Origin: Clostridia bacterium
GTDB lineage: Bacteria; Bacillota; Clostridia; Christensenellales; Pumilibacteraceae
Assembly: GCA_017623455.1 (NCBI GenBank)
Contig: JAGAPA010000084.1
Location: forward strand, 1 to 47,673
Direction of reading: 5' to 3'
Length of the DNA stretch: 47,673 nt
In this document: one piece after another, positions 1 to 38,649 of the stretch
Layout of the letters: the number at the start of each line of letters is the position of its first letter
How positions within the stretch are numbered: the stretch's first letter is position 1
Position numbers and translations under genes: made by a program
Notes under the pieces: generated by a model
Database searches by the model: none
Told to the model about the DNA's origin: nothing
The model's input: the letters and a program-made list of their open reading frames with translations, nothing else

Positions 1-1286
1 CAATCGTGCTTAAGATGAAGACGAGCGCAGGTAACGAGTATATGAACCTTTCCGCAGGCGACGGTTTCACCGTACAGCTTCTTGCAACTCAGCTCGCTTC
101 CGAAGAAGATAGCTTTGATAACAGCTACGACAACGGCGCAGAGTATGATCCACTCGAGGCGTATCCCATTGCAAAGGTAGAAAAGATACCTACTAAGGAC
201 GCAAGCGGAAACGACATTGTATACAGTGTAGCAAACGGAGATATAATCCATAGCGGTAATTGGAATGGTCTTATGTTAGAAGATAACATTTCTCTTGATA
301 CAGCATATAAGTTCACGGCAGTTGACGTTGACGACGATGTTAAGTACACCAAATACGGTAAGTGGGATGCAGACTTCGAGGTTTCTGTAGACAGACTTGT
401 TGAGATTGGAACTTTAGGTCTTGCAGGAAACTACGGTGGATACGGATGGATTGGATTCCTTTCTCCCGTTAACCTTGCTGCGAACGAGCCTATTCGTCTT
501 TTGGAATCTGCAGGATTTGATGTAACGTACGAAGACGTTGTAGAAACAGTAAAAGAGTTTTCTTGCGGAGCTTGGATCGAAGGTTCTGCTCTTGCAGGCT
601 CTACAATTACCGTAGCACTTAAGCTTTATGATCCCGAAAGCACGGATGTAATCGTTGCAGGCAAGTATTCTTATACTTTCCCCGCAATCGAGGATGCGCC
701 CGTTGCAGAACTTAAAACTTATACGGATGCAGAGGTTGCTGCTATACAGAACAGCTTAAGCACTGAGGGTATGTCTTTGTCCGGATTTAATGGTACTCCT
801 ACGTTTGCTACTGATGACGTAGAAATCGTAAGTTTGTATTCTTTCAGACCTGCTGAGACAGATGAAGAGGTAGAAAATAGCCCCTACAAGGATTGGAATG
901 CAGAGTTTGTCGTAGTGTTCAACAACGAAGTTCCCACCGGTTCTATTGGTTTGATGGGATCTTACGCTGATATTCCCTGGGTATATTTTGCTCTTCCCGA
1001 TGTAAGTGATTCTTGTGACGGTGTTGCAGCAAATGAGCCCGTTTTGCTTATGAGTACGGCTGCTCAGATTGCAGGATTTACAGGTTTTGGTTGGACATAC
1101 CAAGATATTTGTGCAGGAATGGATTCGTTTGAGTGCGGTGTGTTTGTAAATACGGACAGCACAAATACCTATGCTGATTTGCCTGCAGGCACAACCATTA
1201 CCGTAGAGCTTCGTCTTTACAATCCTGCAGTAGCGGACGGATCTGATTATATCACAATTCAGTCTGTTACTCAGAACCTTAACTAA
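1..1286 (+). CDS. SipW-tagged surface protein, 5' end missing, with duplicated C-terminal domain
   Basis: The reading frame is open at the left edge (codons in phase from base 3), so signal peptide and true start lie outside the window. The first ~50 residues match the end of a TasA/camelysin-type SipW-tag domain: a GNEYMNLSAGDGF segment and then LLATQ, as in the homologous part of the 1,859-residue protein downstream (IVATQ). The rest contains two related ~130-residue units, about residues 115-225 and 290-415. They share a KW-D-A-(D/E)-F opening, I-G-L-(A/M)-G-(N/S)-Y, AANEP, TY-(E/Q)-D, F-(S/E)-CG and a closing AG-(S/T)-TITV-(A/E)-L-(K/R)-LY-(D/N)-P. I have no established family name for this unit. 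By family, SipW-tagged proteins are exported and cleaved by a SipW signal peptidase, and one is encoded at 8180. Role inferred: cell-surface or matrix protein. Confidence 0.8.
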   Translation, partial: IVLKMKTSAGNEYMNLSAGDGFTVQLLATQLASEEDSFDNSYDNGAEYDPLEAYPIAKVEKIPTKDASGNDIVYSVANGDIIHSGNWNGLMLEDNISLDTAYKFTAVDVDDDVKYTKYGKWDADFEVSVDRLVEIGTLGLAGNYGGYGWIGFLSPVNLAANEPIRLLESAGFDVTYEDVVETVKEFSCGAWIEGSALAGSTITVALKLYDPESTDVIVAGKYSYTFPAIEDAPVAELKTYTDAEVAAIQNSLSTEGMSLSGFNGTPTFATDDVEIVSLYSFRPAETDEEVENSPYKDWNAEFVVVFNNEVPTGSIGLMGSYADIPWVYFALPDVSDSCDGVAANEPVLLMSTAAQIAGFTGFGWTYQDICAGMDSFECGVFVNTDSTNTYADLPAGTTITVELRLYNPAVADGSDYITIQSVTQNLN

Positions 1287-1318
1287 ACAAAAAACATTAT
1301 TGAATAACATTATTGATT

Positions 1319-1362
1319 ACCGTTACCTCTCTGTGCATTCTGCGCGGAGAGGTACGGTAATA
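1319..1362 (+). terminator. Hairpin after the first SipW-tagged gene
   Basis: ACCGTTACCTCTC (1319-1331) pairs with GAGAGGTACGGT (1347-1358) with one bulged base around a 15-nt loop. It lies 33 bases after the stop codon. There is no long U tract, so this could be a weak terminator or an mRNA-stabilising hairpin. Confidence 0.5.
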
Positions 1363-1428
1363 TATGTTTGCGTGCGCGCGCACGTGCGTATGTACGTATG
1401 CGTATACGACCGCAACCATATATTACCG
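1355..1428. repeat. 12-bp inverted repeat around a 40-bp alternating purine-pyrimidine tract
   Basis: CGGTAATATATG (1355-1366) and CATATATTACCG (1417-1428) are exact reverse complements. Between them, bases 1369-1408 alternate pyrimidine and purine without a break over 40 positions, rich in CG and CA/TG steps. The tract includes the perfect 14-bp palindrome at 1371-1384. Such sequence is the classical Z-DNA-forming type and can also extrude a cruciform. It sits about 90 bases before the start of the giant SipW-tagged gene. Confidence 0.75.
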
Positions 1429-1499
1429 AATAAGCAAACAATAGGCAACAAGCCTTAGTTTATATTAAACGCAGAAAATTCACAAAAAGGAGAACTAAA

Positions 1500-4400
1500 G
1501 TGAAAACAAAAAGCAGATGGCTACTTAGCATAATCACGTTATTGTTTTGCGTAGCAACGTTTGTTGGTACGACTTTTGCGTGGTTTACCGATTCAGTAAC
1601 CAGCTCCAATAACATTATCGCGTCGGGAACTCTCGATGTGGAAATGCATTGGGCAACGACCTTGGATTCTACCGATTGGAAAAACGTAGAAACCGACAAA
1701 ACCCCCATCTTCAACAACAAGAACTGGGAGCCGGGATATACCGAGGTTCGTTATATCAAAGTAAAAAATATGGGAACTCTTGCGTTCAAGTACTCTCTTG
1801 CCGTTATTCCCAACGGTAGAGTAGGCGCTTTGGCGGAGGTTATCGACGTTTATTACGTAGTTAATCCCACCGAAAACCTTACTTCCGCATCCGTGTCCGC
1901 GCTTCCCTCTGTAGGAACGTTGAAGGACGTTATCGGAACGCATAAGGGTGGTGGAGTATTGCTTCCCAAAACCGAAGTAAAGGCAGGCTTTTACAGTGGC
2001 GAAATAATCGTTGCCGTAGCTTTCCGCTTGCCCACGTCGGTAGGCAACTTCTATCAAGGCTCGTCCGTAGGCGACTCCTTTAGTATTCAGATAGTTGCTA
2101 CCCAGTACGGCTACGAAAGCGACTCCTTCGATCCCGACTACGATGCAGGCGCACAGTTCCCTGCTTTTGGCGACGAGAAGAGCGCGTCCGCTCCCGTAAC
2201 CCCCACCGCAGACAATAAAGTTCCTGCAGGTGGTGTTTCCCTTACAAATTCCGAGGATAAGATCTCCGCTACCGTTCCCGAAGGTGTTCTTTTAGAAAGT
2301 GGCGCAACCGCTCTTACCCTCACCGTTAACAAGCTCGACGAGAGTAACAGTAACGTAGTTTTGGACGAAACCGAAGTTCTTCTTCCTCTCGACGTTCATA
2401 TCGACGGTGTTTCCGCAAATAATACCGTTCCCATGACCGTACTTTTGGAAGAAGTAGCTCCCATCGGTCTTAATGTTGGTAATTTCAAGCTCTACCACGT
2501 AGAAAACGATGCTACAAGTGTTATGACGGCAAAGGATAGCATAGCTAACCTTACCGACCACAACGATTTCTTCTACGATCCTGCTACGGGTAATATTACC
2601 CTCTATATCGCATCCTTTAGTGAAGTTGCAGTAGTAGCAGATACGTTAAATCCTTGGACTGGCAACTTTGATTTTTCTTGGTATGCAAATCCTGTTACAG
2701 ACGAAAATGGAATAACAACATATTCTATCGCAAATGCCGACCAACTCGCAGCTTTTGGCGCAATCGTAGGCGGAATGGACGGTCAAACTAGAGATGCTTT
2801 TACAGGCGATATCGTAAAACTTATCTCCGATATCAACCTTGGCGATATTGAAAGCGCAAATAACCCTGATCTTATTTTCTATCCTATTGGATATTATAAT
2901 AATAAAGGTTATTATGAAAAGAAGAACGAATCAGAAGTTGAAAGCACCGTGTATTCTTTCGAAGGAACGTTTGACGGAAACGGACACACTATCGCAAACT
3001 TCTACCAAAACACATGGGAAATGTTTGGTGACTACAATAGTGGTTACGCGGCAAATTCTAATCATTATGACGACGCTATGGGCTTGTTCGGTTACGTTGT
3101 TAACGGAATGGTTAAGAACCTTACCGTAGATAATTTCTCTTCTGATGGCGAATTTACTCCCACAGGTGTTATTGCCGCTTATGCAGTAAATTCCACGTTT
3201 ACAAACATTGCTATCACAAACTGTAACCCCAGAGTTTACAATACCGGTAACGGTGGTATCGTAGGTATTGGCGGAAATAGTGACGATCCTGACACTTATA
3301 AGCTTACATTTACAAATATTACAATCGACAACAGCAATAAGATAACTGCGCTTTGGGGATCTTGGGACGTAGCGTGCGGTGGACTTGTTGGTATGTTCCG
3401 TGGCGCAGGTCACGTATATATGACAAACTGTCACGTTGCAGCTCAAATAGACGTATACAATGACGTTTGCGGAAACTATCAGTATTATTGGTATCGTTAT
3501 AGCGGTATGATGGTTGGTACTAATAAAAATATGACAACCGACGATAAAGGCTATACCGTTCCCGAAACTGATAAGTTCCATGCGGAAAATTGTACCGTTC
3601 ACTTTGGTAACTGGAACGATTATTACTACTGCGAACTTGTAGCAAACTCTCTTGCTTCATATACGCACGATCATCAGTTCAGCAGACTTACTCAAATTAC
3701 TTCTCTTAACGAGATATATGACGGTGAAAATTGGTTAAAGACCGGTAACTTCCTTCTTATTAGTGGCAATACAAAGACTTGTTATCATATCGTAAACAAA
3801 AATGGTACGCTTACTCAGCATCTTCATACTGATGCTGGAGAAGAAACAGTAAATGGAGAAACTGTTCTTAAAGAAGATAAGCAGATAGTATACCTTCCCT
3901 TTAATCAGCTCTTTACTGGTTACGGTTGGGGCGTAAAGCATATCCCTGTATATAACGGCGAAGATTATGCTTTTGACGGAATTACCATTCTCGATAGAGA
4001 AGTGGCTGATAGTGTTGTTAAGTTTGAAAAAGCAGATACAGCACAAGAGTCTTATGTTGCAGGAACAACTGTAACCATTGGCGAATTGTTTGAGGCTATT
4101 GGAAATTCTGAAATTGAAATAAATAACGGCGCTGTAATGGTTTCCGTAACTCCTTTAGATGATAGTAAAGCAAATGGAACATACGTTGCTGATAATGATG
4201 ATTGGGCAAACGGAACTCTTACATTTGCAGGAAAAGGCGTTGCAAACGTATCAATTACCGATTACTATTTCTGTAAAACAACCACAATTACAGTAACTAT
4301 TATCGGCGTTGATAAGTTTATTGCAAAATTGCCTGAAGCAAATTTCCTCTATCGTGTAGGTAATGCAAACACCGTATCTCTTGGTTCATTGTTTGAGGCG

Positions 4401-7079
4401 ATAGATGGACAATCAATAGATAGTGCAAGTGTTCAAGTAACTGTTAATGCATTAAACGATGCAATCGTTTCTGGAGAATTTAAGCCTAATACATCTGATT
4501 GGACAAAAGGAACAATTCAGTTTAGTGGTACAGGTGTTGTAATAGTTTCCATTGAAGACTCTATGTCTAATGTGTTTGAAATAACTCTCGAAGTAGTTGA
4601 TGCAGTAAACGTAACGTCTGCAACAAATGCAACGGCAAACAACGTAGTATTGCTTAATGATTGTGGATTTAGCAGTTTGGAAGTGTCAGGCGGTTATACG
4701 CTTTACGGTAACGGCTTTACAATGACTTGCGGTAGCGATTCAGTTGCATTGGATATGGGTTATTCGTTCGTAACTTTAAATAATGGAACTCTTGATAACG
4801 TACAGATTGTTTGCCCTAACTTCGATTACGCAGCACTTTATAAGAGTAATCTTACAAGTAGTGATAATCGTAGTGAAACAGACGCAAACGGAAATAGCCG
4901 TTATTATAACGCAAAGAGCGGTGTAATGGCAAGAGGAAACAGCCAAATCCTTAACTCTCGTATTTCGGGTGCTCGTGCAGCAGTTAACGTTTCAGGCGGT
5001 AATTTAGTTATTGATAATTCGCGTATCGAACTTGGTGCAGTAGCTTCTATTTTGGTTGGTGCTGCAAATAGTCTTACCTTGCGCGATGTAACGTTAGTTC
5101 AAAAGCCTACAGCTTCTACTTATGATAGTAATAAAAAGTTAATGGGCTTTAGCGTATTGTATATGTGCGATTCGGAAGGAAAAGCAACGCCCACAACCTT
5201 AGATGGAAGTTTTGTTCAAAATGCGTGGGTAAATGCGGATGATAAACAATATGTGCCTTCTGCTGGTCAAGATATTGTGGACGGAGTAATGAAAGAAACA
5301 GCATTTATTCACAATATAAACGGCAAAGATAGTCTTAATCTTGGCTTTGCTTATATGCCAGAAGATGCTCAAAAAACAGTAGCAGCGCCAGACAATATTA
5401 CAGATAACAGAACTGATAAAGCAACGATACCTTACGAAATGAAGGATGTGAAAATCCAAATTTCCATTTTGTCTACAACTGTTTACGTATACTCCTATAA
5501 AAACACTAATGGAACGGCAGATTCTTTCAAAACAGAATCTGAATATAAACCTAATAAATATGGAGATATAATCACCGTTTCTTATAGCGATACGGCAGAC
5601 GGACTTGAAAGTGTCAAGTCTTTTGGAACGAGCGGCTGGGTATACGAGCTTAACGTAGACTTAGATAAGTTAAGCGGTTATGCTCTCGACTTTAGTAAAA
5701 TTACTATGTCAGTAAACGGTAAAAATATTACTGATTATAAGGTAAACGGAAATGCTAAACCCACCTCTCCCGTAGCAGTAACAGCAGGTGGTACAACGTA
5801 CACTCTTACAGCTACCGTAAACGGAAATGAATATACCGCAACTTATAAAGTAACGGGTACAGAAACCAGTAAGGAATCCCCCTCGTTGGTGGCAAGCAAT
5901 TACGAAGCAGGCTTATGTGTAGCTTCTTCTTACGGTGGAACTTGGCACGGAGCTGCCCCTGCTTTGCAAGGTATTCAAATTAAGTATTGGTCAGTTGCCG
6001 AAAAACAGTATAAAACTATCAATCTTTCTGATTACACCCCTACAACCAAAGGTCAGTTAAACGGAACTAATACAACTTGGACGTATTCTCCAGCAAACGG
6101 CGACTTTACGCTTACTCTTACAGGTGGCCAGGTTCATTCTTCTAACAATGTTTATGCTATGCCTGTTGTGTGCGACGGAAAACTTTATTTTGTACCGGCA
6201 AAATCAACTGGCCTTGTAAATTCCGGCAACTCAGCAAGAACGATTCCTGTATCGTATTCGTTCAAAGATAACAACAATGGAGATGTTTTAACTTTCTCTC
6301 ATACCTGGTCGGTAGCTGAAAATAAAGACGCCCAGTATAACTATTCTGATTTCTGTAACGGCACATTAACGAAATTAGAAGCAAGCGGCGGTGACGGTTG
6401 CGTAACCCCCGATACCCTTATCACTCTTGCTGACGGAACGCAAAAGAGAGTAGACGAGCTTGACGGAAGCAAAGAATTGCTTGTTTGGAATTTGGAAACA
6501 GGTTCTTACGGTTCTGCGCCCATTATGTTTGTGGACAGCGATCCCGAAACAGAGTACGAAGTTGTAAAGCTTATATTTGCCGACGGAACGGAAGTAAAGA
6601 CTATTTATGAACACGGTTTCTGGGATTATGACCTTAACGAATACGTATACGTTCGCGCGGATAATTATAGCGATTATGTTGGACATTATTTTGCTAAGCA
6701 GAACGGCAACGAGCTTGAAAAAGTTCAGCTTGCTGACGTAGTTATCGAAACCGAGTTTACAATGGCTTACTCGCCTGTAACAAAAGGACATCTTTGTTAT
6801 TTCGTAAACGGTATGCTTTCAATGCCGGGCGGTGTAGCTGGCTTGTTCAATATCTTTGAGGTTGATAGCGAAACTATGACCTATGACTTTGAAGCAATGC
6901 AGGCAGATATCGAAACCTACGGATTGTTTACCTACGAAGAACTCAATTCTATTGTAGAACTTCCCGAAAGTATGTTCAACGAAGCAGGTGGCGCTTATCT
7001 TAAGATTTCCATTGCAAAAGGTCGTATGACTATGGACGAACTTATTACAATGATCGAACGTTATAAGAAGTTCTTCTAA
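1500..7079 (+). CDS. Giant SipW-tagged beta-helix surface protein with C-terminal Hint domain
   Basis: The 1,859-residue product starts at GTG 1500, with AAGGAG at 1487-1492 giving 7-nt spacing. Residues 1-35 are an export signal ending in the SipW tag (TTFAWFTDSVTSSN), and a TasA/camelysin-like domain runs to about 215. About 486-690 is a GLUG-like beta-helix region (GTFDGNGHTIANF, GLFGYVVNGMVKNL). About 850-1040 holds two ~95-residue Ig-like repeats with the shared LFEAI element, and about 1049-1215 is a second beta-helix-like segment. A Hint domain follows (Cys1634 to about 1775), then an 80-residue acidic tail. The neighbours are further SipW-tagged genes and a SipW-type peptidase. Role inferred: large surface adhesin or matrix protein, perhaps autoprocessed or anchored through the Hint thioester. 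No catalytic carbohydrate-active motif was recognised in the beta-helices. Confidence 0.85.
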   Translation: MKTKSRWLLSIITLLFCVATFVGTTFAWFTDSVTSSNNIIASGTLDVEMHWATTLDSTDWKNVETDKTPIFNNKNWEPGYTEVRYIKVKNMGTLAFKYSLAVIPNGRVGALAEVIDVYYVVNPTENLTSASVSALPSVGTLKDVIGTHKGGGVLLPKTEVKAGFYSGEIIVAVAFRLPTSVGNFYQGSSVGDSFSIQIVATQYGYESDSFDPDYDAGAQFPAFGDEKSASAPVTPTADNKVPAGGVSLTNSEDKISATVPEGVLLESGATALTLTVNKLDESNSNVVLDETEVLLPLDVHIDGVSANNTVPMTVLLEEVAPIGLNVGNFKLYHVENDATSVMTAKDSIANLTDHNDFFYDPATGNITLYIASFSEVAVVADTLNPWTGNFDFSWYANPVTDENGITTYSIANADQLAAFGAIVGGMDGQTRDAFTGDIVKLISDINLGDIESANNPDLIFYPIGYYNNKGYYEKKNESEVESTVYSFEGTFDGNGHTIANFYQNTWEMFGDYNSGYAANSNHYDDAMGLFGYVVNGMVKNLTVDNFSSDGEFTPTGVIAAYAVNSTFTNIAITNCNPRVYNTGNGGIVGIGGNSDDPDTYKLTFTNITIDNSNKITALWGSWDVACGGLVGMFRGAGHVYMTNCHVAAQIDVYNDVCGNYQYYWYRYSGMMVGTNKNMTTDDKGYTVPETDKFHAENCTVHFGNWNDYYYCELVANSLASYTHDHQFSRLTQITSLNEIYDGENWLKTGNFLLISGNTKTCYHIVNKNGTLTQHLHTDAGEETVNGETVLKEDKQIVYLPFNQLFTGYGWGVKHIPVYNGEDYAFDGITILDREVADSVVKFEKADTAQESYVAGTTVTIGELFEAIGNSEIEINNGAVMVSVTPLDDSKANGTYVADNDDWANGTLTFAGKGVANVSITDYYFCKTTTITVTIIGVDKFIAKLPEANFLYRVGNANTVSLGSLFEAIDGQSIDSASVQVTVNALNDAIVSGEFKPNTSDWTKGTIQFSGTGVVIVSIEDSMSNVFEITLEVVDAVNVTSATNATANNVVLLNDCGFSSLEVSGGYTLYGNGFTMTCGSDSVALDMGYSFVTLNNGTLDNVQIVCPNFDYAALYKSNLTSSDNRSETDANGNSRYYNAKSGVMARGNSQILNSRISGARAAVNVSGGNLVIDNSRIELGAVASILVGAANSLTLRDVTLVQKPTASTYDSNKKLMGFSVLYMCDSEGKATPTTLDGSFVQNAWVNADDKQYVPSAGQDIVDGVMKETAFIHNINGKDSLNLGFAYMPEDAQKTVAAPDNITDNRTDKATIPYEMKDVKIQISILSTTVYVYSYKNTNGTADSFKTESEYKPNKYGDIITVSYSDTADGLESVKSFGTSGWVYELNVDLDKLSGYALDFSKITMSVNGKNITDYKVNGNAKPTSPVAVTAGGTTYTLTATVNGNEYTATYKVTGTETSKESPSLVASNYEAGLCVASSYGGTWHGAAPALQGIQIKYWSVAEKQYKTINLSDYTPTTKGQLNGTNTTWTYSPANGDFTLTLTGGQVHSSNNVYAMPVVCDGKLYFVPAKSTGLVNSGNSARTIPVSYSFKDNNNGDVLTFSHTWSVAENKDAQYNYSDFCNGTLTKLEASGGDGCVTPDTLITLADGTQKRVDELDGSKELLVWNLETGSYGSAPIMFVDSDPETEYEVVKLIFADGTEVKTIYEHGFWDYDLNEYVYVRADNYSDYVGHYFAKQNGNELEKVQLADVVIETEFTMAYSPVTKGHLCYFVNGMLSMPGGVAGLFNIFEVDSETMTYDFEAMQADIETYGLFTYEELNSIVELPESMFNEAGGAYLKISIAKGRMTMDELITMIERYKKFF
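6399..6824 (+). other. Hint (intein/hedgehog-type autoprocessing) domain inside the giant protein
   Basis: The domain opens with Cys1634 in CVTPDTLITLADGTQKRVDEL-like order, the usual first block of Hint folds. His1705 in IYEHGFWDY occupies the block-B histidine position, but the Thr precedes it by four residues rather than the usual three. The close is HLCYFVNGML (His1764), matching the final beta strands of the fold. The terminal Asn followed by Cys/Ser/Thr needed for protein splicing is absent and about 80 more residues follow. An N-S acyl shift at Cys1634 is therefore possible but classical splicing is not. Confidence 0.8.
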
Positions 7080-7104
7080 TCCCCAAAAAAACCTAAAAAA
7101 ACCT

Positions 7105-7142
7105 AAAGAGAATGCGATAAAAATCGTGTTCTCTTTATTCTT
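7105..7142 (+). terminator. Terminator of the giant SipW-tagged gene
   Basis: AAAGAGAA (7105-7112) pairs with TTCTCTTT (7129-7136), with an inner GCGAT/ATCGT pairing and a following T-rich stretch, 26 bases after the stop codon. Confidence 0.8.
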
Positions 7143-7163
7143 TTAAATAATCCCAACCGCTTA

Positions 7164-7218
7164 AAGCCTCCACTTGTTTAGTCAAGGGGAGGGGGACCGC
7201 ATAGCGGTGGAAGGGATA
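7164..7218 (+). repeat. Two-hairpin dispersed element, copy 1 (stem ACCGC/GCGGT)
   Basis: Hairpin 1 is CCTCCACTTG with CAAGGGGAGG (one mismatch). Hairpin 2 follows directly as ACCGC-ata-GCGGT and then GGAAGGGAT. The same frame with other stem-2 sequences occurs at 10661, 12806, 12907, 13088 and 13477. Noncoding. Confidence 0.85.
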
Positions 7219-7275
7219 AATATTTAATCCGGCAAAGCCAAACAATCAACTACCGTAAGTTTTCTCATTTTGGCA

Positions 7276-7410
7276 GTGCGCCTTCGCACCAATCCCAACC
7301 ATTCAACAAGAGATTGCCACGGTCATTTCATTCCCTCGCAATGACAATGTGGTAGACAGGTCTGCCCAGTACGCAGGCGTACTCCCAATATCGTTCTTCC
7401 CATTTCAACC
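7276..7410 (+). repeat. Composite intergenic repeat, copy 1
   Basis: About 130 bases, nearly identical to copies at 7547, 7716, 7851 and 13239. In order it has a GTGCG-ccttc-GCAC hairpin, a CCAACCATTCAACAA linker, the segment from GAGATTGCCACGG to CTCGCAATGAC (7310-7345), and TACGCAGGCGTA followed by CTCCCAATATCG. The middle part is the reverse complement of the GTCATTGCGAG to GTGGCAATCTC element common in bacterial intergenic DNA. Apparent reading frames here are repeat-derived. Confidence 0.85.
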
Positions 7411-7434
7411 GTGGGTCTGCCCACCCAACCGCTT

Positions 7435-7491
7435 AAGACCTCCACTTGTTTAGTCAAGGGGAGGGGGACCGCATAGCGGTGGAAGGGATAA
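7435..7491 (+). repeat. Two-hairpin dispersed element, copy 2 (stem ACCGC/GCGGT)
   Basis: Essentially identical to copy 1 through both hairpins and the AAGGGATAAATAT flank. It is preceded by a GTGGG-tctg-CCCAC hairpin at 7421-7434. Confidence 0.85.
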
Positions 7492-7546
7492 ATATCTAAT
7501 CCGGCAAAGCAGACAATCAACTACTGTCAGTTTTCCCATTTCGACC

Positions 7547-7673
7547 GTGCGCCTTCGCACCAATCCCAACCATTCAACAAGAGATTGCCACGGTCATTTC
7601 ATTCCCTCGCAATGACAATGTGGTAGACAGGTCTGCCCAGTACGCAGGCGTACACCCAATATTGTTCTTTAAC
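7547..7673 (+). repeat. Composite intergenic repeat, copy 2
   Basis: Same order of modules as copy 1. The GAGATTGCC to GCAATGAC core is at 7581-7616, and the copy ends with TACGCAGGCGTACACCC and AATATTGTTCTTT. Confidence 0.85.
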
Positions 7674-7715
7674 AAAGCCAAACAATAAATCACCATCGGT
7701 TCTTTTATTTTGGGA

Positions 7716-7843
7716 GTGCGCCTTCGCACCAATCCCAACCATTCAACAAGAGATTGCCACGGTCATTTCATTCCCTCGCAATGACAATGTGGTAGACAGG
7801 TCTGCCCAGTACGCAGACGTACTCCCAATATCGTTCTTCCCAT
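7716..7843 (+). repeat. Composite intergenic repeat, copy 3
   Basis: Same modules, with the core at 7750-7785. One substitution (TACGCAGACGTA) breaks the symmetry of the terminal hairpin. Confidence 0.85.
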
Positions 7844-7850
7844 ATTGGCA

Positions 7851-7982
7851 GTGCGCCTTCGCACCAATCCCAACCATTCAACAAGAGATTGCCACGGTCA
7901 TTTCATTCCCTCGCAATGACAATGTGGTAGACAGGTCTGCCCAGTACGCAGGCGTACTCCCGATTATCGTTCTTCCCATTTC
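7851..7982 (+). repeat. Composite intergenic repeat, copy 4
   Basis: Starts eight bases after copy 3 in direct orientation, with the core at 7885-7920. It is followed by a further GTGCGCCTTCGCAC hairpin at 7987-8000. Bases 8001-8040 after it are AT-rich without recognisable features. Confidence 0.85.
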
Positions 7983-8059
7983 AACCGTGCGCCTTCGCAC
8001 CACCCAACCACTCTTTCTATTATATATAATATTATATTATACTAAATCGCTTAAAATAC

Positions 8060-8095
8060 TTGACAATATTGACAAAACGCGGTAAACTATATAAT
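8060..8095 (+). promoter_or_regulatory. Likely promoter of the SipW signal peptidase gene
   Basis: Two overlapping-phase TTGACA boxes (8060-8065 and 8069-8074) precede TATAAT (8090-8095). The closer box has a 15-nt spacer, shorter than the ideal 17. The promoter lies downstream of the repeat block and 85 bases before the start codon. Confidence 0.6.
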
Positions 8096-8179
8096 GAGTT
8101 ATAGTGTGTAGTTATAATATAATATACATTTTATTGAATTTTGCATTATTTGCACACAAGTAGCTTAAAGTGAGGTATA

Positions 8180-9112
8180 ATGGAGAACGAGCAATTACAA
8201 ATTAATCAAAGCTCAGCTCAAAACGACGAAGCTACTCAGCAAAATCAGCCTATAGATACTCAGGTAACGAGTGAGGAGCAAACCGCGCCGACCGATGGCG
8301 AAGCAAAAGAGGTTGAAGCGGAAGAGCAACCGCCCAAGCCTTCGCTTATAAGCAGAATCTTAAACGTAGTATCTTGGGTGTTCTTGGTACTCACCGCGCT
8401 TGTTATGGTGTTTACAATCGTTTCGTCGCTCACGTTCAACCGCACCGACAAAAAGATTTTTGGCGTAAGCATGATGATCGTACTTTCCGACTCGATGAAG
8501 AAAACGGACTTTGCGGCAGGCGATCTTATCTTTATTACGGACGTAGATCCCAAGACGTTGAAAGAGGGAGACATTATCTGCTTTACTTCTCAGAACAAAG
8601 AGAACTTTGGCGAAACGGTAACGCACAAGATTAAATCAAAAACAGTTGTTGAGGAAACTATAACCGACGAGAACGGACAGCAAAAAACCATTTACATACC
8701 TGCGTTCATTACGTACGGAACAACAACGGGCGAAGAAGACGCGTCACCCGTAACGTACGAGTGGATAAAGGGTAAGTACGTAGGACATCTTCCTGCGGTC
8801 GGACACGTGTTTAATTTCCTCAAAACCCCGGCAGGCTACGTATGCATTATTCTCATACCGTTCGTTCTTCTTATCGGCTATCAGATCTTTAACGCGATAA
8901 AAGCCTACAAGCTCTACAAAGGCGAGCAAAAGGACGAGATAAAGGAAGAGCGTAAGAACCTTGAGCAGGAAAGAGCCGAGAATCTCAAAATGCTCGAAGA
9001 AATGCGCGCGCTTAAAGCTCAGCTTGATGCAATGAAGAGTCAAGCAACCGCGCCCACCGCGCCCGTTCAGACGGAGCAGTCAAGCGCGTCCGAGCCCAAG
9101 CAAGCGGAATAA
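8180..9112 (+). CDS. sipW: SipW-type signal peptidase I with cytoplasmic coiled-coil extension
   Basis: The 310-residue membrane protease would remove signal peptides from SipW-tagged exoproteins. The N-terminal ~55 residues are acidic, Gln-rich and cytoplasmic. TM1 is about 57-84. The catalytic box is VLSDSM with Ser105, followed by GDLIF and EGDIICF. GETVTHKI supplies His149, so this is the Ser/His (ER/SipW) type rather than Ser/Lys. TM2 is about 212-235. Residues about 245-290 are a charged coiled coil (EERKNLEQERAENLKMLEE) not usual in Bacillus SipW, which has roughly 190 residues. A weak GTGAGG-like site precedes ATG 8180. The two SipW-tagged genes that follow are the obvious local substrates. 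The symbol is given by type, not by proven orthology. Confidence 0.9.
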   Translation: MENEQLQINQSSAQNDEATQQNQPIDTQVTSEEQTAPTDGEAKEVEAEEQPPKPSLISRILNVVSWVFLVLTALVMVFTIVSSLTFNRTDKKIFGVSMMIVLSDSMKKTDFAAGDLIFITDVDPKTLKEGDIICFTSQNKENFGETVTHKIKSKTVVEETITDENGQQKTIYIPAFITYGTTTGEEDASPVTYEWIKGKYVGHLPAVGHVFNFLKTPAGYVCIILIPFVLLIGYQIFNAIKAYKLYKGEQKDEIKEERKNLEQERAENLKMLEEMRALKAQLDAMKSQATAPTAPVQTEQSSASEPKQAE

Positions 9113-9186
9113 CTTATTCAAAACAGGCATATCTTAAACGTAAACAGTAAACAGGCAAACTCTTAATGTGTAGGAGGCGAATCCAA

Positions 9187-9783
9187 ATGCGATCTAAATC
9201 TAAATCTAAAATAATTTTCGCCATCATAACAATTATAGTGTGTACGATTTTGTTGGCATCAACGTCGCTCGCACTGTTTACCGATACAGCGGAGGAAACA
9301 ACCGTCCGCATTCAATCGGGAACAATGCAGGTAGACCTTCAGCAAGCCGACAGTAACGGACACTACGTTTCGCTTGAAAATAAACCGGGTAACATCTTCG
9401 GCAACGACGGATGGGAGCCAAATCAGACTCGTGTTTATTTCTTTAAGGTGGTTAACAACAGTAATATTATCGTTAAATTCACGTTCGTGCTTATCGCTGA
9501 TATGATGGATATGGCAGGTTCGCTCGAGTATTCGTCTTTCGAGGATCAGCAGTTTGAGGACGTAAAGGGAAGCCATTCTAAGTACTACAACGCGTCATAC
9601 GACAATCTTTACGAAAACCGCAACCCAATATCCGGCCCCACATACGTGCAGATGCAACCCGGTGAGGAAAAATATTATGCGGTAGCTGTCAGAATGAAGT
9701 GGCAGAGTGGTAACGAATACCAAGGTAAGTACTGCTCGATAGACGTTTTCCTCCACGCAATGCAGGGAAACGCAACCCCCTAA
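9187..9783 (+). CDS. Small SipW-tagged exoprotein (TasA/camelysin-like)
   Basis: The 198-residue product starts at ATG 9187, because the AGGAGG at 9172-9177 lies 9 nt upstream of it. The in-frame ATG at 9166 lies before this site. A basic start (RSKSKSK) and hydrophobic segment lead to the SipW-tag variant STSLALFTDTAEETT. The body follows the camelysin/TasA plan: SGTMQVDL, WEPNQTRVYFFKVVNNSN, MQPGEEKYYAVAVRMKW, then GNEYQGKYCSIDVFLHA. It lies 74 bases after the signal peptidase with no clear terminator between, so co-transcription is likely. Expected to be exported and cleaved by that peptidase, possibly as a fibre or matrix subunit. Confidence 0.85.
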   Translation: MRSKSKSKIIFAIITIIVCTILLASTSLALFTDTAEETTVRIQSGTMQVDLQQADSNGHYVSLENKPGNIFGNDGWEPNQTRVYFFKVVNNSNIIVKFTFVLIADMMDMAGSLEYSSFEDQQFEDVKGSHSKYYNASYDNLYENRNPISGPTYVQMQPGEEKYYAVAVRMKWQSGNEYQGKYCSIDVFLHAMQGNATP

Positions 9784-9936
9784 CCGTTTCAAAAAATTTT
9801 TCAGATATTGCAATAAAAAAGCTTGGATAATTATTTATATAACGTAGGAACATGATTTGATATCTTCTTACCGCGGATTCCTCCGCAAAAAACTATGCTA
9901 CAATATTAAGGCTTAAAACTTGGAAAGGAGGTAGCA

Positions 9937-10422
9937 ATGGAAAAAAACAAAAAACTGATAAAAGGCAGTGTAAGGCTTACCGTAATCGTTTGCGTTTTAT
10001 GTGCCGTTATGTGTTTTTGCCTGTTCAGCGCAACAACGTTTGCTTGGTTTACAGATTCCGTTACTGCAAGCAATTCCACGATGGTGAGCGCGGATTATAG
10101 CGTAATTTCCACTCTTTCCAAAGAAGGAACTACCGTTACTCCGGACGTGGCAACCGCTTCGGGAATTAAAGAATACAACCTTACCTCGGGCATCTACAAA
10201 ATTGAGTTTACAGCCCAAGGCTCTGCAACTACGGGCTTTGCGTTTATTACGGTAAAAACCACCGCAGGGACTAATACGTATTTCACTCAGCAGATGGCTC
10301 CCAATTCCAATTATACTGTAAGATTATTGCTTAACGAAAATGCACACGTAACTCTTAACTATCAATGGGGTAGTCACGGCAGAACGGAAAACATAATTGA
10401 AAACGGTTCTGATATCAACTAA
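9937..10422 (+). CDS. Small SipW-tagged exoprotein with divergent body
   Basis: The 161-residue product has an excellent AAAGGAGGT at 9924-9932 just before ATG 9937. Residues 1-45 are a signal segment ending in the SipW tag TTFAWFTDSVTASN, nearly the same tag as in the giant protein. The rest (about 50-161) does not follow the camelysin plan. It is a Thr/Ser-rich beta-type domain with FAFITVKTTAG, NYTVRLLLNENAHVTLNYQW and a polar end. No further family recognised. It is the last gene of the SipW cluster, followed by a strong terminator. Confidence 0.8.
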   Translation: MEKNKKLIKGSVRLTVIVCVLCAVMCFCLFSATTFAWFTDSVTASNSTMVSADYSVISTLSKEGTTVTPDVATASGIKEYNLTSGIYKIEFTAQGSATTGFAFITVKTTAGTNTYFTQQMAPNSNYTVRLLLNENAHVTLNYQWGSHGRTENIIENGSDIN

Positions 10423-10434
10423 AAACTAAGATAA

Positions 10435-10472
10435 AAAAAACGACAGGATAAATAAATATCTTGTCGTTTTTT
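10435..10472 (+). terminator. Strong terminator ending the SipW cluster
   Basis: AAAACGACAGGATA pairs with TATCTTGTCGTTTT (one G-U pair) around AATAAA and ends in a T run, 12 bases after the stop codon. Confidence 0.9.
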
Positions 10473-10504
10473 CTTGCAATCATTCCTTTGTGTGTGCTAT
10501 AATA

Positions 10505-10653
10505 AAAGCCTATCAAAGTGCTCAGGCGTACACCCGATTATTGTCCTTTAGTAATGTAAACAATCAACTATCGTTAGTTCCTTCATCTCGGCAGTGCGCC
10601 TTCGCACCAACCACCGTCGGTTCTTTTATTTTTGGCAGTGCGCCTTCGCACCA
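10505..10653 (+). repeat. Fragmentary intergenic repeat modules
   Basis: A degraded CAGGCGTACACCCGATTATTG module (about 10515-10535) is followed by two GTGCGCCTTCGCAC hairpins at 10594-10607 and 10639-10652, each with the same CCAACCA flank. No supportable gene lies between 10473 and 10862. Confidence 0.7.
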
Positions 10654-10660
10654 ACCACTT

Positions 10661-10717
10661 AAAGCCTCCACTTGTTTAGTCAAGGGGAGGGGGACCACTT
10701 TGGTGGTGGAAGGGATA
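10661..10717 (+). repeat. Two-hairpin dispersed element, copy 3 (stem ACCAC/GTGGT)
   Basis: Flanks and hairpin 1 are the same as in copy 1, but hairpin 2 reads ACCAC-ttt-GGTGGT. Both sides of the stem changed together. Confidence 0.85.
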
Positions 10718-10740
10718 AAAATACCCACCATTAACCTCTA

Positions 10741-10797
10741 AAAGCCTCCACTTGTTTAGTCAAGGGGAGGGGGACCGCATAGCGGTGGAAGGGATAA
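10741..10797 (+). repeat. Two-hairpin dispersed element, copy 4 (stem ACCGC/GCGGT)
   Basis: Lies 80 bases after copy 3 in the same orientation and carries the ACCGC-ata-GCGGT stem of copies 1 and 2, including the AAGGGATAAATATCTAATC flank. Confidence 0.85.
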
Positions 10798-10862
10798 ATA
10801 TCTAATCCCAACCACTTATTCCTTATCCCCGTCAAGCATCACCCCCAAAAGGAGTAAACATC

Positions 10863-11576
10863 ATGAAAATTATGACATTTAACACTCAGCATTGTGAAAA
10901 CTTTATTACAAAAAAAATAGATTTTCAGCTAATGGCGGACGTTATTAAAAAATTAAGTCCCGACGTGGTGGGGTTAAACGAGATGCGCGACAAGGGTGAG
11001 CGCGAAGATTATGAAGCTCAAACTGCAATGCTCTCATCGCTTACGGGTATGCCGTATTACTATTTCGCAAAAGCCATAGACGTCGGCGGAAGCAACCCTT
11101 ACGGAAACGCGATTCTAAGCAAGATCCCGTTTATATCCGTAGAAAATATTCCTATCCCCGACCCCGATGATAAAAGCGACGGAAAATACTACGAAACGCG
11201 CTGTGTCTTAAAAGCCGTTCTTGATAACGGAATTACCGTGTTTGTTACGCACTTCGGGCTTAATCCGTCCGAGCATGAAAATGCCGTAAAAACGGTGTTA
11301 AACAGCTTAAAAACCGAAAAATGCGTGCTAATGGGGGATTTTAACGTTAAGCCTGATAATCCCGTTCTTGCGCCGATTTTTGCTAAAATGAGGGATGCTT
11401 CGCAAGGCTTTTGCCATACTAAAAAATCTTTCCCGAGCAACGCGCCCAATATTAAAATAGATTATATATTCGTATCACCCGATATGCAGGTAACGTCTTC
11501 CGATATTCCCGATATTATCGCATCCGACCACTGTCCGCATATTGCCGAAATTAAGGACGAAACTGTCCGAGCATAA
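10863..11576 (+). CDS. Endonuclease/exonuclease/phosphatase (EEP) family hydrolase
   Basis: The 237-residue product is a metal-dependent phosphoesterase of the DNase I/Mg2+-phosphatase fold. Motifs appear in canonical order: TFNTQH at 5-10, LNEM with metal-binding Glu40, YGNAILSK, THFGL with His130, MGDFN with Asp159 and Asn161, IDYIF, and SDHCPH with the Asp222/His223 pair. No signal peptide, so it is cytoplasmic. AAGGAG at 10849-10854 gives 8-nt spacing to ATG 10863. Substrate unknown: the family covers nucleases, sphingomyelinases, inositol phosphatases and sugar-phosphate hydrolases. It stands 57 bases before a serine hydrolase in the same direction, so the two may be co-transcribed. Confidence 0.85.
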   Translation: MKIMTFNTQHCENFITKKIDFQLMADVIKKLSPDVVGLNEMRDKGEREDYEAQTAMLSSLTGMPYYYFAKAIDVGGSNPYGNAILSKIPFISVENIPIPDPDDKSDGKYYETRCVLKAVLDNGITVFVTHFGLNPSEHENAVKTVLNSLKTEKCVLMGDFNVKPDNPVLAPIFAKMRDASQGFCHTKKSFPSNAPNIKIDYIFVSPDMQVTSSDIPDIIASDHCPHIAEIKDETVRA

Positions 11577-13054: not shown

Positions 13055-13087
13055 TATATTGAGAGTGGGTCTGCCCACCAACCGCTC

Positions 13088-13144
13088 AAGACCTCCACTT
13101 GTTTAGCCAAGGGGAGGGGGACCACCTTGGTGGTGGAAGGGATA
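13088..13144 (+). repeat. Two-hairpin dispersed element, copy 7 (stem ACCACC/GGTGGT)
   Basis: The CCTCCACTTG-type hairpin 1 contains one loop-side change (TTTAGCC). Hairpin 2 reads ACCACC-tt-GGTGGT. Confidence 0.85.
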
Positions 13145-13238
13145 AATATCTAATCCGGCAAAGCAGACAGGTCTGCACCCAATATTGTTCTTTAACAAAG
13201 CCAAACAATCAACTACCATTGGTTCTTTTATTTTGGCA

Positions 13239-13352
13239 GTGCGCCTTCGCACCAATCCCAACCATTCAACAAGAGATTGCCACGGTCATTTCATTCCCTC
13301 GCAATGACAATGTGGTAGACAGGTCTACCCAGCAGACAGGTGTACACCCGAT
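13239..13352 (+). repeat. Composite intergenic repeat, copy 5
   Basis: Same module order as the copies at 7.3-8.0 kb, with the core at 13273-13308 identical in sequence. The terminal module is degraded (GACAGGTGTACACCCG). A further copy of that module lies at about 13378-13410. Confidence 0.8.
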
Positions 13353-13476
13353 TATTGTGCTTTAGCAAAGCAAGCACGCAGGCGTACCCCCCCGATTATT
13401 GTGCTTTAGCAAAGCCAAACAATCAACTACTGTCAGTTTTCCCATATTGGCAGTGCGCCTTCGCACCAACCCCTCA

Positions 13477-13528
13477 AAAGCCGTCCTTGCAAAGGAAGGT
13501 GGCGACGAAGTCGACGGAAGGATTGGCT
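13477..13528 (+). repeat. Two-hairpin dispersed element, copy 8 (stem CGAC/GTCG)
   Basis: Shares hairpin 1 and both flanks with copy 6 (GCCGTCCTTGCAAAGGAAGG, and GGAAGGATTGGCTAA after it). Hairpin 2 reads GGCGAC-gaa-GTCG. A GTGCGCCTTCGCAC hairpin precedes it at about 13453-13466. Confidence 0.8.
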
Positions 13529-35652: not shown

Positions 35653-38649
35653 ATGAATCTTTATTGTAAAAATTGCGGAAGTGAAATTGAGATTAACAGC
35701 AGACAGAAAATTGCGGTCTGCGATTTTTGCGGTATGGAGCAAACGGTTCCCAAAGCCGACGATCCCAAAAAGCTCGAGCTTTTTATAAAGGCAAACGACT
35801 TTCGTATGTCGAGCAGATTCGACCTTGCAAAAAGTATGTACGAAAATATAATTTCCGCATACCCCGACGACAACGAGGCGTACTGGTGCAAGATCCTTTG
35901 CGAGTACGGCATAGAATACGTGGACGATATTGCAACCGAGTCCAAGATTCCCACCTGTCACAGAACGGTAAGAGAAAGTATTTTCAATAACCGCGACTAT
36001 AAGTTTATCATAAAAAGAGCAACAAAAGAAGAGAAAGCAATATACGAAGCGGAAGCAAAAGAGATTGACCGCATACAAAAAGAGATTATCGAAAGCGCGG
36101 ACAGGGAAGCTCCGTACGATATCTTCATTTGCTACAAGGAGAGCGACGAAAACGGCAAACGAACGAGAGATTCGCAGATAGCCACAAGAATTTACACCAA
36201 TCTTACAAACAAGGGTTATAAGGTGTTTTTTGCGCGTGTAACGCTTAAAGAACTTGCAGGCAGTAAGTACGAGCCCGTCATCTATTCCGCGCTCACTTCA
36301 GCAAAAGTAATGCTCGTCGTTACCACGACCAAAGAGTTCGTAAACGCGCCGTGGGTAAGAAACGAATGGAGCAGATTTTTGGAGTTTATGCAAAACGACT
36401 ACTCTAAGGTTTTAGTGCCCTGTATCTGCATGATGGACGCATACGATCTGCCCGACGAGCTTTCCGAGTTTCAGGTTCTCGGCACTATGGATATGGATTT
36501 CACCGAAAATCTAACCCGACAGATAGACAGTAAGTTTGGCAGAACGTCGGTAGTTCAAAGTACACCCGATGACGTGGTTACAAGCATACGTAGTGCAGTA
36601 AATTATACACAACCTACTCCTCAACCCTCACCCTCCGACTCTTTGCAACCCCTTCTTAGGCGCATAGAGATATTCCTTTTAGACGAGGAATGGGGTAAGG
36701 CGGACGAGTATGCGGAAAAGGTGCTGGATATGAATCCCGAGTGCGCCGAGGCTTACCTTGGCAAGCTTTTGGCAGAGCTTAAGCTTACGAGCAAGGATAT
36801 GCTCAAAAAGTACACTTCGCCGTTTGACGGCAACAAGAATTTCAAAAAGGCGGTGCGCTTTGCAAACAGCGAGCTTAAGCGGTTTTTAGAGAGCGCGTCG
36901 AACAGTATAAACGAAAATATCGAGAATGAGAAAAAACAGAGCGCTTATGAAAAAGCATTGAAAGTTATGCAAAGAGCAAAGACCGAAAGCGAGTTTATGG
37001 AAGCTTGCGGTATGTTTGACTCTTTAGGCGGTTTCAGCGATTCCAAAGCCCTTGTAAAGCAGTGCAAAGCAAAGATCGACGAGCTTAAGAAAGACGCGAC
37101 GTATCGCGAGGCGGAAATACTTATTAATCAGGACGCGCTGGAGTATTACGAAAATGCGGAAAAGCTGTATTCTTCGCTTGGCAACTGGAAGGACAGCAAG
37201 GAAAAAGCAGAGCTTTGCAAAAGTATGATATCCGACATCAAATCTCAGCAAGAAGCCGAGCGCAACGACGGAATTTACGAAAAGGCGAAACTGTTATATA
37301 AGGAAAAAGATATTGCCTCATGCGAAAAAGCAATAGAGCTGTATGAGAGTATTTTAGGCTGGAAGGACAGTAAAACGCAGATTAGAAACTGTCGCAAGAA
37401 GATTGAGAAGTTAGAAGCCGATCGGATAGCTGCGGAGGCAAAAGCGGAAGAGGAGAGATTGGCGCGATTAAGAGAGGATGTGGAGCGAGCACGCATAGAG
37501 GAAATTTGCAAAAAACTGCTTGACGAGTATCTTGCCTCAAAAAGCGAAGCTGAGATCAGTACGATGAAAAGCAATTACAAGAGGGATATCGAAAAACAGA
37601 CCTTTAGACTTACCCAGCTTGCAAGAGCCATGGACGCAATCCCCGAGTATACCCAAAAGATTGCTGAGGCAGAAAAAAGGAGAGATGAATACCGATCTAA
37701 GATTCCCGTACTTCACGAAGAAAAATCCCATCTTTCTATCTTTGCGATAAAGCGCAAAAAAGAGATAGATGAGGAGATAAGAAAAACGGAAGACCACATG
37801 TACGTTCTTACGGGCATAAAAAGTGATTTCGAGCAAAAACTCAAAACCGAGTCTTTGGGTTGTAAGACCGTAGAGGACGTAAATAACGAGATATTACGTG
37901 TCAAACAGCAAATAAAACACATTCAGGAAAGAATGAACGATTGCGATCAGCTCCGCTCAAAGGAATTGATTTTGGCAGAGCTCAGAAGCTATCCGATTGG
38001 CAAAGAAATGTACAACAAACATCTCGAAAACGAAAAGTTCAACGAGTCCATAAAGGATATCGTAAACGCGAAAAAGGGTTCTACCGTAAAGTTCGGTAAA
38101 TATTTCAACAAGACCAAAACAACAAAAGAGGATATCGAGTGGCAGGTTCTTGCACGTGAGGGCGACAAGGTTTTGCTTATCAGCAAATATGCCCTCGACT
38201 GCGTACCGTACAACGAGATCTATACTGACGTAACCTGGGAGATATGCTCGTTGAGAGAATGGCTCAACACCGAGTTCCTGAATTCCGCGTTCAGCGAAAG
38301 AGAGATTGAGTGTATACCTACCGTTGACGTAGAAGCGCACAAGAATTATATGTACCCGTCGTACTTTCCGGGCAGGACAACGCAAGACAAGGTTTTCGTG
38401 CTCAGTATTCCCGAGATAAACAAGTATTTGGTAACCGCGGCAAGATCGGCTTGTAGTCCCACTCCGTATGCTAAAAGAAAGGGTGCGTTCACGGGCACGG
38501 GCGGCAGATGCTGTTGGTGGGTGCGCTCTCCCGGCTACGGAAAAACTCAGGCACCAAACGTAAACGATAAAGGCGAGATATATACCAGCGGATACAACGT
38601 AAATTCCGACGACAGCGCGGTTCGCCCTGCGTTGTGGATAAAAGCGTAA
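35653..38649 (+). CDS. Zinc-ribbon/TIR/coiled-coil/DUF6273 multidomain protein
   Basis: The 998-residue cytoplasmic protein opens with a zinc ribbon with Cys5, Cys8, Cys23 and Cys26. A TPR-like stretch (about 40-90) follows. The TIR domain covers about 153-290: APYDIFICYKESDE at strand A, GYKVFFARVTLKELAG, SAKVMLVVTTTKEFVNAPWVRNEW with Trp234 and candidate catalytic Glu238. A Pro-rich linker, TPR/SEL1-like helices with recurring GNWKDSK/GWKDSK units (about 330-580) and a long coiled coil (about 590-790) come next. The last part, a DUF6273 domain (about 812-998), has FGKY, WQVLARE, CSLREWLN, CCWWVRSPG and VRPALWIK. TIR domains signal or cleave NAD. Role inferred: sensing or immunity. It has its own promoter and no obvious partner gene. 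Confidence 0.85.
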   Translation: MNLYCKNCGSEIEINSRQKIAVCDFCGMEQTVPKADDPKKLELFIKANDFRMSSRFDLAKSMYENIISAYPDDNEAYWCKILCEYGIEYVDDIATESKIPTCHRTVRESIFNNRDYKFIIKRATKEEKAIYEAEAKEIDRIQKEIIESADREAPYDIFICYKESDENGKRTRDSQIATRIYTNLTNKGYKVFFARVTLKELAGSKYEPVIYSALTSAKVMLVVTTTKEFVNAPWVRNEWSRFLEFMQNDYSKVLVPCICMMDAYDLPDELSEFQVLGTMDMDFTENLTRQIDSKFGRTSVVQSTPDDVVTSIRSAVNYTQPTPQPSPSDSLQPLLRRIEIFLLDEEWGKADEYAEKVLDMNPECAEAYLGKLLAELKLTSKDMLKKYTSPFDGNKNFKKAVRFANSELKRFLESASNSINENIENEKKQSAYEKALKVMQRAKTESEFMEACGMFDSLGGFSDSKALVKQCKAKIDELKKDATYREAEILINQDALEYYENAEKLYSSLGNWKDSKEKAELCKSMISDIKSQQEAERNDGIYEKAKLLYKEKDIASCEKAIELYESILGWKDSKTQIRNCRKKIEKLEADRIAAEAKAEEERLARLREDVERARIEEICKKLLDEYLASKSEAEISTMKSNYKRDIEKQTFRLTQLARAMDAIPEYTQKIAEAEKRRDEYRSKIPVLHEEKSHLSIFAIKRKKEIDEEIRKTEDHMYVLTGIKSDFEQKLKTESLGCKTVEDVNNEILRVKQQIKHIQERMNDCDQLRSKELILAELRSYPIGKEMYNKHLENEKFNESIKDIVNAKKGSTVKFGKYFNKTKTTKEDIEWQVLAREGDKVLLISKYALDCVPYNEIYTDVTWEICSLREWLNTEFLNSAFSEREIECIPTVDVEAHKNYMYPSYFPGRTTQDKVFVLSIPEINKYLVTAARSACSPTPYAKRKGAFTGTGGRCCWWVRSPGYGKTQAPNVNDKGEIYTSGYNVNSDDSAVRPALWIKA

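Follow-up and report, generated by a model that had tools for sequence, protein, structure and literature searches.

A Hedgehog-like Hint domain with a conserved helical tail at the C-terminal end of exported proteins in gut Clostridia

What a Hint domain might do at the end of a giant exported bacterial protein is the question raised by contig JAGAPA010000084.1 of a Clostridia bacterium (assembly GCA_017623455.1, Pumilibacteraceae), a 47,673-nucleotide stretch which we call the window and which is a complete contig (G000:C20) of a genome in 96 contigs that is 77.6% complete. An earlier note on this DNA described a gene cassette with a SipW-type signal peptidase and an exported protein of 1,859 amino acids (aa) ending in a Hint domain and an 80-residue tail, and suggested that the Hint domain cleaves, cyclises or covalently attaches the passenger after export. 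The observation was confirmed and the interpretation is partly supported: the SipW link is secondary, and the finding is better put as a Hedgehog-like Hint domain plus helical tail, a module made up of the last ~226 residues, with which many otherwise unrelated exported proteins of gut Clostridia terminate. The protein and its parts are as follows.

1500..7079, plus strand: 1,859-aa exported protein (GTG start, GGAG upstream)
1500..1640, plus strand: SipW-type signal peptide, with TTFAWFTDSV near residues 24-33 of the protein (TIGR04088 over cut-off)
6399..6827, plus strand: Hint domain, Cys1634 to Pro1776 (AlphaFold model m9c1dff28762d, PDB comparisons, 85-row alignment)
6870..7076, plus strand: conserved five-helix tail, residues 1791-1859 (model mb04e13f3f2c6 of the tail alone, predicted local distance difference test score 92.8)

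From its N-terminus the protein consists of a SipW-type signal, a camelysin/TasA-like start, a long passenger and the C-terminal Hint domain with its tail, and it passes the TIGR04088 cut-off of 19 bits both in the protein scan (20.3 bits) and in the genome search (25.1 bits), in agreement with the exported passenger of the earlier note. By single-sequence Pfam the Hint domain is weak (PF01079, 17.5 bits against a cut-off of 29.7). The beta fold is clear when the AlphaFold model is compared with PDB structures: the model shares its fold with the intein-like domains 6Y75 and 2LWY, and the comparison of a predicted structure with Hint folds for which the earlier note had called thus gave a confident model with that fold. 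PDB sequence searches retrieved the Tetrahymena domain BIL2 (E 2e-5) and fly Hedgehog 1AT0 (E 0.017) with alignment A1, retrieved both more weakly with the larger alignment A2 (E 0.027 and 0.14), and with A5, the first 89 positions, placed an unrelated designed protein first (E 1.9e-6), followed by BIL2 (3e-5) and 1AT0 (5e-4). We base the claim of a Hint fold on the predicted structure and not on these sequence searches. The beta fold, the block A nucleophile and the block B histidine that characterise the Hint superfamily are all present.

Relatives were gathered by a genome scan with a pattern in the tail (181 found, best 80 kept); adding the window and the four top-scoring viral matches (L120-L123) to these 80 loci gave an alignment of 85 rows. 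Positions 174-182 are conserved by construction, as the search pattern lies there in the tail; the conservation of the Hint residues is independent of it. With Cys1634 counted as position 1, Asp1679 is position 46, Ile1702 position 69 and His1705 position 72. A profile alignment to the fly Hog domain (verified as 1AT0) runs without a gap from Cys1 to His72 and sets C258, D303, T326 and H329 of Hog against Cys1634, Asp1679, Ile1702 (in place of Thr) and His1705. Cys1 is kept in 85/85 rows, His72 in 84/85 and D46 in 76/85, and in a 15-row diverse set Cys1 and His72 are each present in 15/15. Cys1634, His1705 and His1764 had been named for the Hint domain; all three stand where they were placed and the first two match known catalytic positions, though Asp1679 was missed, and His1764 (kept in 76/85) corresponds to no catalytic position known to us.

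For comparison, 76 other viral Hint loci were taken from the best 80 of 109 found, giving 56 sequences that differ from one another within the region. Of these, 40 have TxxH and 5 have D46, as against 0 and 76 of the 85 rows with the tail. D46 accompanies the tail in most rows and not in all, because the four tail-bearing viral loci lack it and because one or two of the 56, namely L124 (cut by a contig end) and L125, may carry tails. The four viral loci (L120-L123) are IMG/VR contigs encoding proteins of 725-822 aa which end in the Hint-tail module at 37-43% identity, show no evident signal peptide and have Tyr or Phe at position 46; L120-L122 are equal in length and identity.

The tail, put at 80 residues in the earlier note, is indeed conserved and about 70-80 residues long. 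A Foldseek search of the PDB with its model gave nothing at or below E 0.001 and a single hit at E 9.3, which is no proof of a new fold, and the window's tail matches no Pfam family at E 0.1. Stray Pfam matches turn up in a few of 68 tails, among them EF-hand in three, with a best value of 0.017. When the whole module was compared with viral structures, the top match was the Gaeavirus protein A0A3G5A239 (BFVD; annotated as Hedgehog/Intein domain-containing), with 227 aligned columns, a query template modelling score of 0.73 and 20% identity; because this alignment covers nearly the whole Hint-tail model, the combination of Hint domain and tail may also exist outside bacteria. Among the Pfam, NCBIfam and PHROGs matches there is no family dedicated to the module, none of the 75 members searched against PHROGs hit a family at 0.001, and the deposited phage collection yielded no match.

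The 3' end is uncut in 77 loci; 73 of these finish at most about 240 residues from the Hint start and four run to 270-281. An uncut 5' end is available for 65 of the 80 loci, and by a hydropathy count, which is not a signal-peptide predictor, an N-terminal hydrophobic stretch is present in 55 of these and absent from 10. Passengers were examined in a set of 55 (the window, 52 genome loci and two viral loci), restricted, the window apart, to 300-1500 aa, an uncut start and no duplicates. Pfam assigned InlB-type Flg_new repeats to 26 of them, LRR_5 to 19, subtilase to 10, alpha/beta hydrolase to three and several peptidases to one each. The module occurs in 14 genomes among 61 near relatives, each belonging to the window's family (14/37 including its own genome; 0/24 others), in 53 of 297 genomes sampled from the order, in 14 of 391 from the class (11 outside the order, in seven families) and in one of 398 from the phylum, namely the window's own genome. 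No partner gene emerged when 822 neighbouring open reading frames of at least 90 aa from the 80 loci were clustered: no family occurs in more than eight loci, though many of the 80 are cut by contig ends. Genes which we read as encoding LytTR/Agr-type regulators and AgrB-like proteins lie near the module at 4-5 of the 80 loci, including L084 and L081. Genome G020, of the window's family, has one Hint-tail frame of 478 codons with no hydrophobic start, which may be truncated, and genome G019 has a short frame (L013/L214) in which other sequence runs straight into the later half of the Hint domain and the tail; it lacks the catalytic half and looks like a decayed copy.

Among known systems, the fly HhC Hog domain (1AT0) shares with the module the Hint fold, Cys1, D46 and His72 at equal spacing, an exported passenger, the absence of C-terminal splice residues and an extra region after the Hint domain; the module differs in being bacterial and in lacking the TxxH threonine and, by our mapping, C400. 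Because these two Hog features are absent, we would not class it as a Hog domain. Bacterial intein-like (BIL) and related domains, such as those of C. thermocellum (2LWY) and Tetrahymena (BIL2, 6Y75), have the same fold, Cys1 and block-B histidine; the module departs from them by its conserved helical tail and by lacking both the C-terminal His-Asn and the TxxH threonine. Inteins end in His-Asn followed by Cys, Ser or Thr, BIL types A and B are defined by a C-terminal His-Asn junction, and the module instead has mostly Met-Pro at positions 142-143 (M 70, P 78 of 85), matched by alignment to the His-Asn place of BIL2. A class 3 intein (block-F Cys, Trp near the His), suggested by Cys133 and Trp75, was considered and dropped, as Cys1 is kept and the positions differ on our reading. 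PMC4582956 places BIL domains in some clostridial scaffoldins. The unclassified bacterial proteins of PMC2362128 likewise have a C-terminal Hint-like domain and in some cases a signal peptide; the six species named there belong to the Proteobacteria and the myxobacteria. No description of a Hint-tail family was found in searches of open-access PMC, including passages of PMC2362128, PMC7906309, PMC7664689, PMC9163320, PMC5590126 and PMC4582956, and no open-access PMC paper was found that joins a Hint domain with SipW or SipW with an intein.

Our best explanation, on which we judge the case to be evenly balanced, is a single-turnover Hedgehog-like module which would form a thioester at Gly1633-Cys1634 and resolve it by a nucleophile or water, with no splicing. 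The host would be exported by Sec, here with removal of the SipW signal, and the Hint domain would fold outside the cell. Cys1634, aided by His1705, would then attack the Gly1633 carbonyl to give the thioester, which would be resolved either by water or by an external nucleophile, possibly one bound by the tail and losing its proton to Asp1679, so that the passenger is released from the Hint-tail with an adduct or a free acid as its new C-terminus. Splicing and cyclisation would not be part of this mechanism because the C-terminal His-Asn is absent. The cyclisation proposed in the earlier note is accordingly unlikely, and of its other two outcomes N-terminal cleavage or attachment to an outside nucleophile is possible, with the missing TxxH threonine standing against both. 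That the module actively cleaves, with transfer and hydrolysis both possible, we put at about one half; the confidences given to the rival explanations overlap with that of the best explanation.

Several features weigh against such activity. The TxxH threonine is present in 0/85 rows, position 69 being Ile or Val in 82/85, and this is the chief doubt. The Pro of position 143 falls on C400 of Hog's SCYA motif by a mapping from equal end offsets (model 6..150 on 258..402), with no printed alignment behind it. Residue -1 is mostly Ser (40/85), with Gly in 11/85. D46 is kept in just 9/15 of the diverse set and is absent from all four viral Hint-tail loci, two of which are distinct. Finally, in the same-genus orthologue of the 1,859-aa protein the passenger is 67-97% identical in 22 of 27 60-residue segments and 44-63% identical in five, and the Hint domain and tail are only 29-53% identical (about 42%), with D46 lost. 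We first read this low identity as module swapping, which is unsupported: a tree that held the window and orthologue modules together had a higher likelihood than the free quick tree (approximately unbiased test, p-AU 0.84). The orthologue's Hint-tail branch is very long in the tree, and fast divergence of the module fits better than replacement.

An alternative to which we give some, though clearly less, credence is a catalytically dead Hint domain that serves as a folded unit for binding or anchoring, such as to the cell wall through the Hint surface or the tail, its Cys and His being retained for structure or a disulfide. The loss of the threonine from every row and the rapid change in the orthologue both suit it, as does a second Cys at position 133 in 72/85 rows (together with D46 in 70). 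On our reading, the 23 Pfam families listed for the 55 passengers include no cell-wall anchor domain, so some anchor may be wanted. Against it, Cys1 and His72 survive even in the fast-changing orthologue, and D46, which is reported as special to Hedgehog, is so widely kept. A review (PMC9163320) describes D303 and C400 as Hedgehog residues not present in inteins, and reports that fly H329A is inactive, that T326A has greatly reduced activity and that D303A retains cleavage by dithiothreitol (DTT) and does not carry out full cholesteroylation. Inteins are described in PMC7664689 as tolerating active-site variation, some lacking the block-B or penultimate histidine.

If the module is active, water alone may resolve the thioester so that the passenger is simply shed, the plain form of the best explanation and overlapping with it, which we regard as possible on a tentative footing. 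The fold shared with the intein-like 6Y75 and 2LWY and the lack of splicing residues are consistent with hydrolysis, and BIL domains yield mainly cleavage products according to PMC7664689. The prevalence of D46 argues the other way, as PMC9163320 has the Hedgehog D46 restraining premature cleavage, being required for transfer and being dispensable for simple cleavage by DTT. A bolder form of the Hedgehog-like proposal, which we find rather unlikely, is that the Hint-tail ester-links the new C-terminus of the passenger to a molecule of the envelope or the host that carries a hydroxyl group (a lipid, a glycan or a host-derived sterol), Asp1679 acting as general base and the five-helix tail recognising the adduct; Hog has a sterol/adduct recognition region after its Hint domain, and any kinship of the conserved helical tail to that region would be hypothetical. 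Were this true, Hog-type chemistry of animals would have a bacterial analogue in gut commensals. An active module of any kind would give gut Clostridia a self-contained, genetically encoded means of cutting or labelling surface proteins at their C-termini. It would also mean that bacteria have catalytic residues of the Hedgehog type, and protein chemistry would gain a new thioester domain for use at C-termini.

The 1,859-aa gene is one of five plus-strand genes occupying the first 10.5 kb of the window, and all of the claimed reading frames (427, 1,859, 310, 205 and 161 aa) are present. The remaining features are these.

3..1286, plus strand: C-terminal 427 aa of an exoprotein whose start is lost at the contig end (open reading frame; same-genus relative)
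8180..9112, plus strand: 310-aa SipW/ER-type signal peptidase, Ser105/His149, two hydrophobic segments (TIGR02228 over cut-off)
8921..9034, plus strand: charged segment of the peptidase C-terminus, about residues 248-285, possibly coiled-coil (sequence)
9166..9783, plus strand: 205-aa probable SipW substrate, LASTSLALFTD (TIGR04088 17.0 bits, under the cut-off of 19)
9937..10422, plus strand: 161-aa exported protein with a SipW tag (TIGR04088 23.1 bits)

Of the four SipW-tagged genes in the earlier description, the 1,859-aa and 161-aa proteins exceed the TIGR04088 cut-off and the 205-aa protein falls just below it in the genome search, with no match at 0.01 in the protein scan. The 427-aa protein is probably also a SipW substrate, because its same-genus relative (L200, a 624-codon frame, 43% identity) carries a SipW-type signal with the tag AGTTFAWFTD. 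The Ser/His signal peptidase is borne out by Ser105, His149 and a passing TIGR02228 score (68.5 bits, cut-off 51.85). Its charged C-terminal segment is present, the coiled-coil character being possible, and similar segments occur in a paralogue on contig C94 and in the peptidase of locus L050. In Bacillus the TasA/SipW matrix system has a SipW-type peptidase beside TasA/camelysin-like substrates. The window shares this arrangement and differs in its giant Hint-ending substrate and in a peptidase that scores below the cut-off of the Bacillus SipW equivalog NF046067 (75.6 bits against 190).

The Hint domain and the SipW peptidase could then be one fibre-building unit of a dedicated matrix system, which we consider improbable. 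The host's camelysin/TasA-like start and the partial conservation of the cassette speak for it. At locus L050, whose Hint domain is the nearest to the window's by path in the quick tree, there are a 235-aa peptidase (40% identity, tblastn), one SipW-tagged TasA-like protein and a Hint host (39.6% identity across 1,456 aa), and nothing there matches the 161-aa protein; in the same-genus genome G001 both large genes are present, and no peptidase was found within the 19 kb fetched, the contig ending about 1.1 kb past the host. The cassette is thus kept in part. Against such a unit, a simple pattern (not a hidden Markov model) found a SipW-like motif in only one of the 65 hosts with an uncut start (L050), so a SipW-Hint system does not hold as a general rule, and the source genome has a single Hint-tail module for 16 SipW tags over the cut-off. 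Because that genome has 19 TIGR04088 matches in all and four peptidase-like loci (two adjoining partial matches on C94 counted as one), SipW-type export is general in the organism. Further SipW-type peptidases lie by SipW-tagged proteins on contigs C94 (L217, L219, L220) and C61 (L218), and the C94 peptidase at 10073-10891 has a long charged C-terminal segment.

A further possibility, to which we attach little weight, is that the Hint-tail stands in for LPXTG anchoring in lineages without sortase. Within the 297 order genomes, 53 have the module, 103 have a sortase and only two have both (Fisher p 7.7e-9), and sortase matches are found in 0/37 genomes of the window's family and 11/24 of the other order genomes. 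The pattern follows families, however (11 with the module, 18 with sortase, two with both), and may go back to a single event in the past or to a handful; of the 11 genomes outside the order that have the module, 5 have a sortase, compared with 158/291 in the class sample. Substitution for sortase was not upheld, given this dependence on family and the lack of such a pattern beyond the order. As context for a C-terminal labelling route, 194 of the 297 order genomes gave no sortase match.

An Rfam scan of the window returned nothing, and dispersed repeats occupy intergenic stretches at 7152-8005, 10590-10808 and 13078-13502, with an 87-base unit that has 18 matches genome-wide, five of them on the window's contig. 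A 998-aa protein at 35653-38649 combines a TIR domain (PF13676) with a C-terminal DUF6273 domain.

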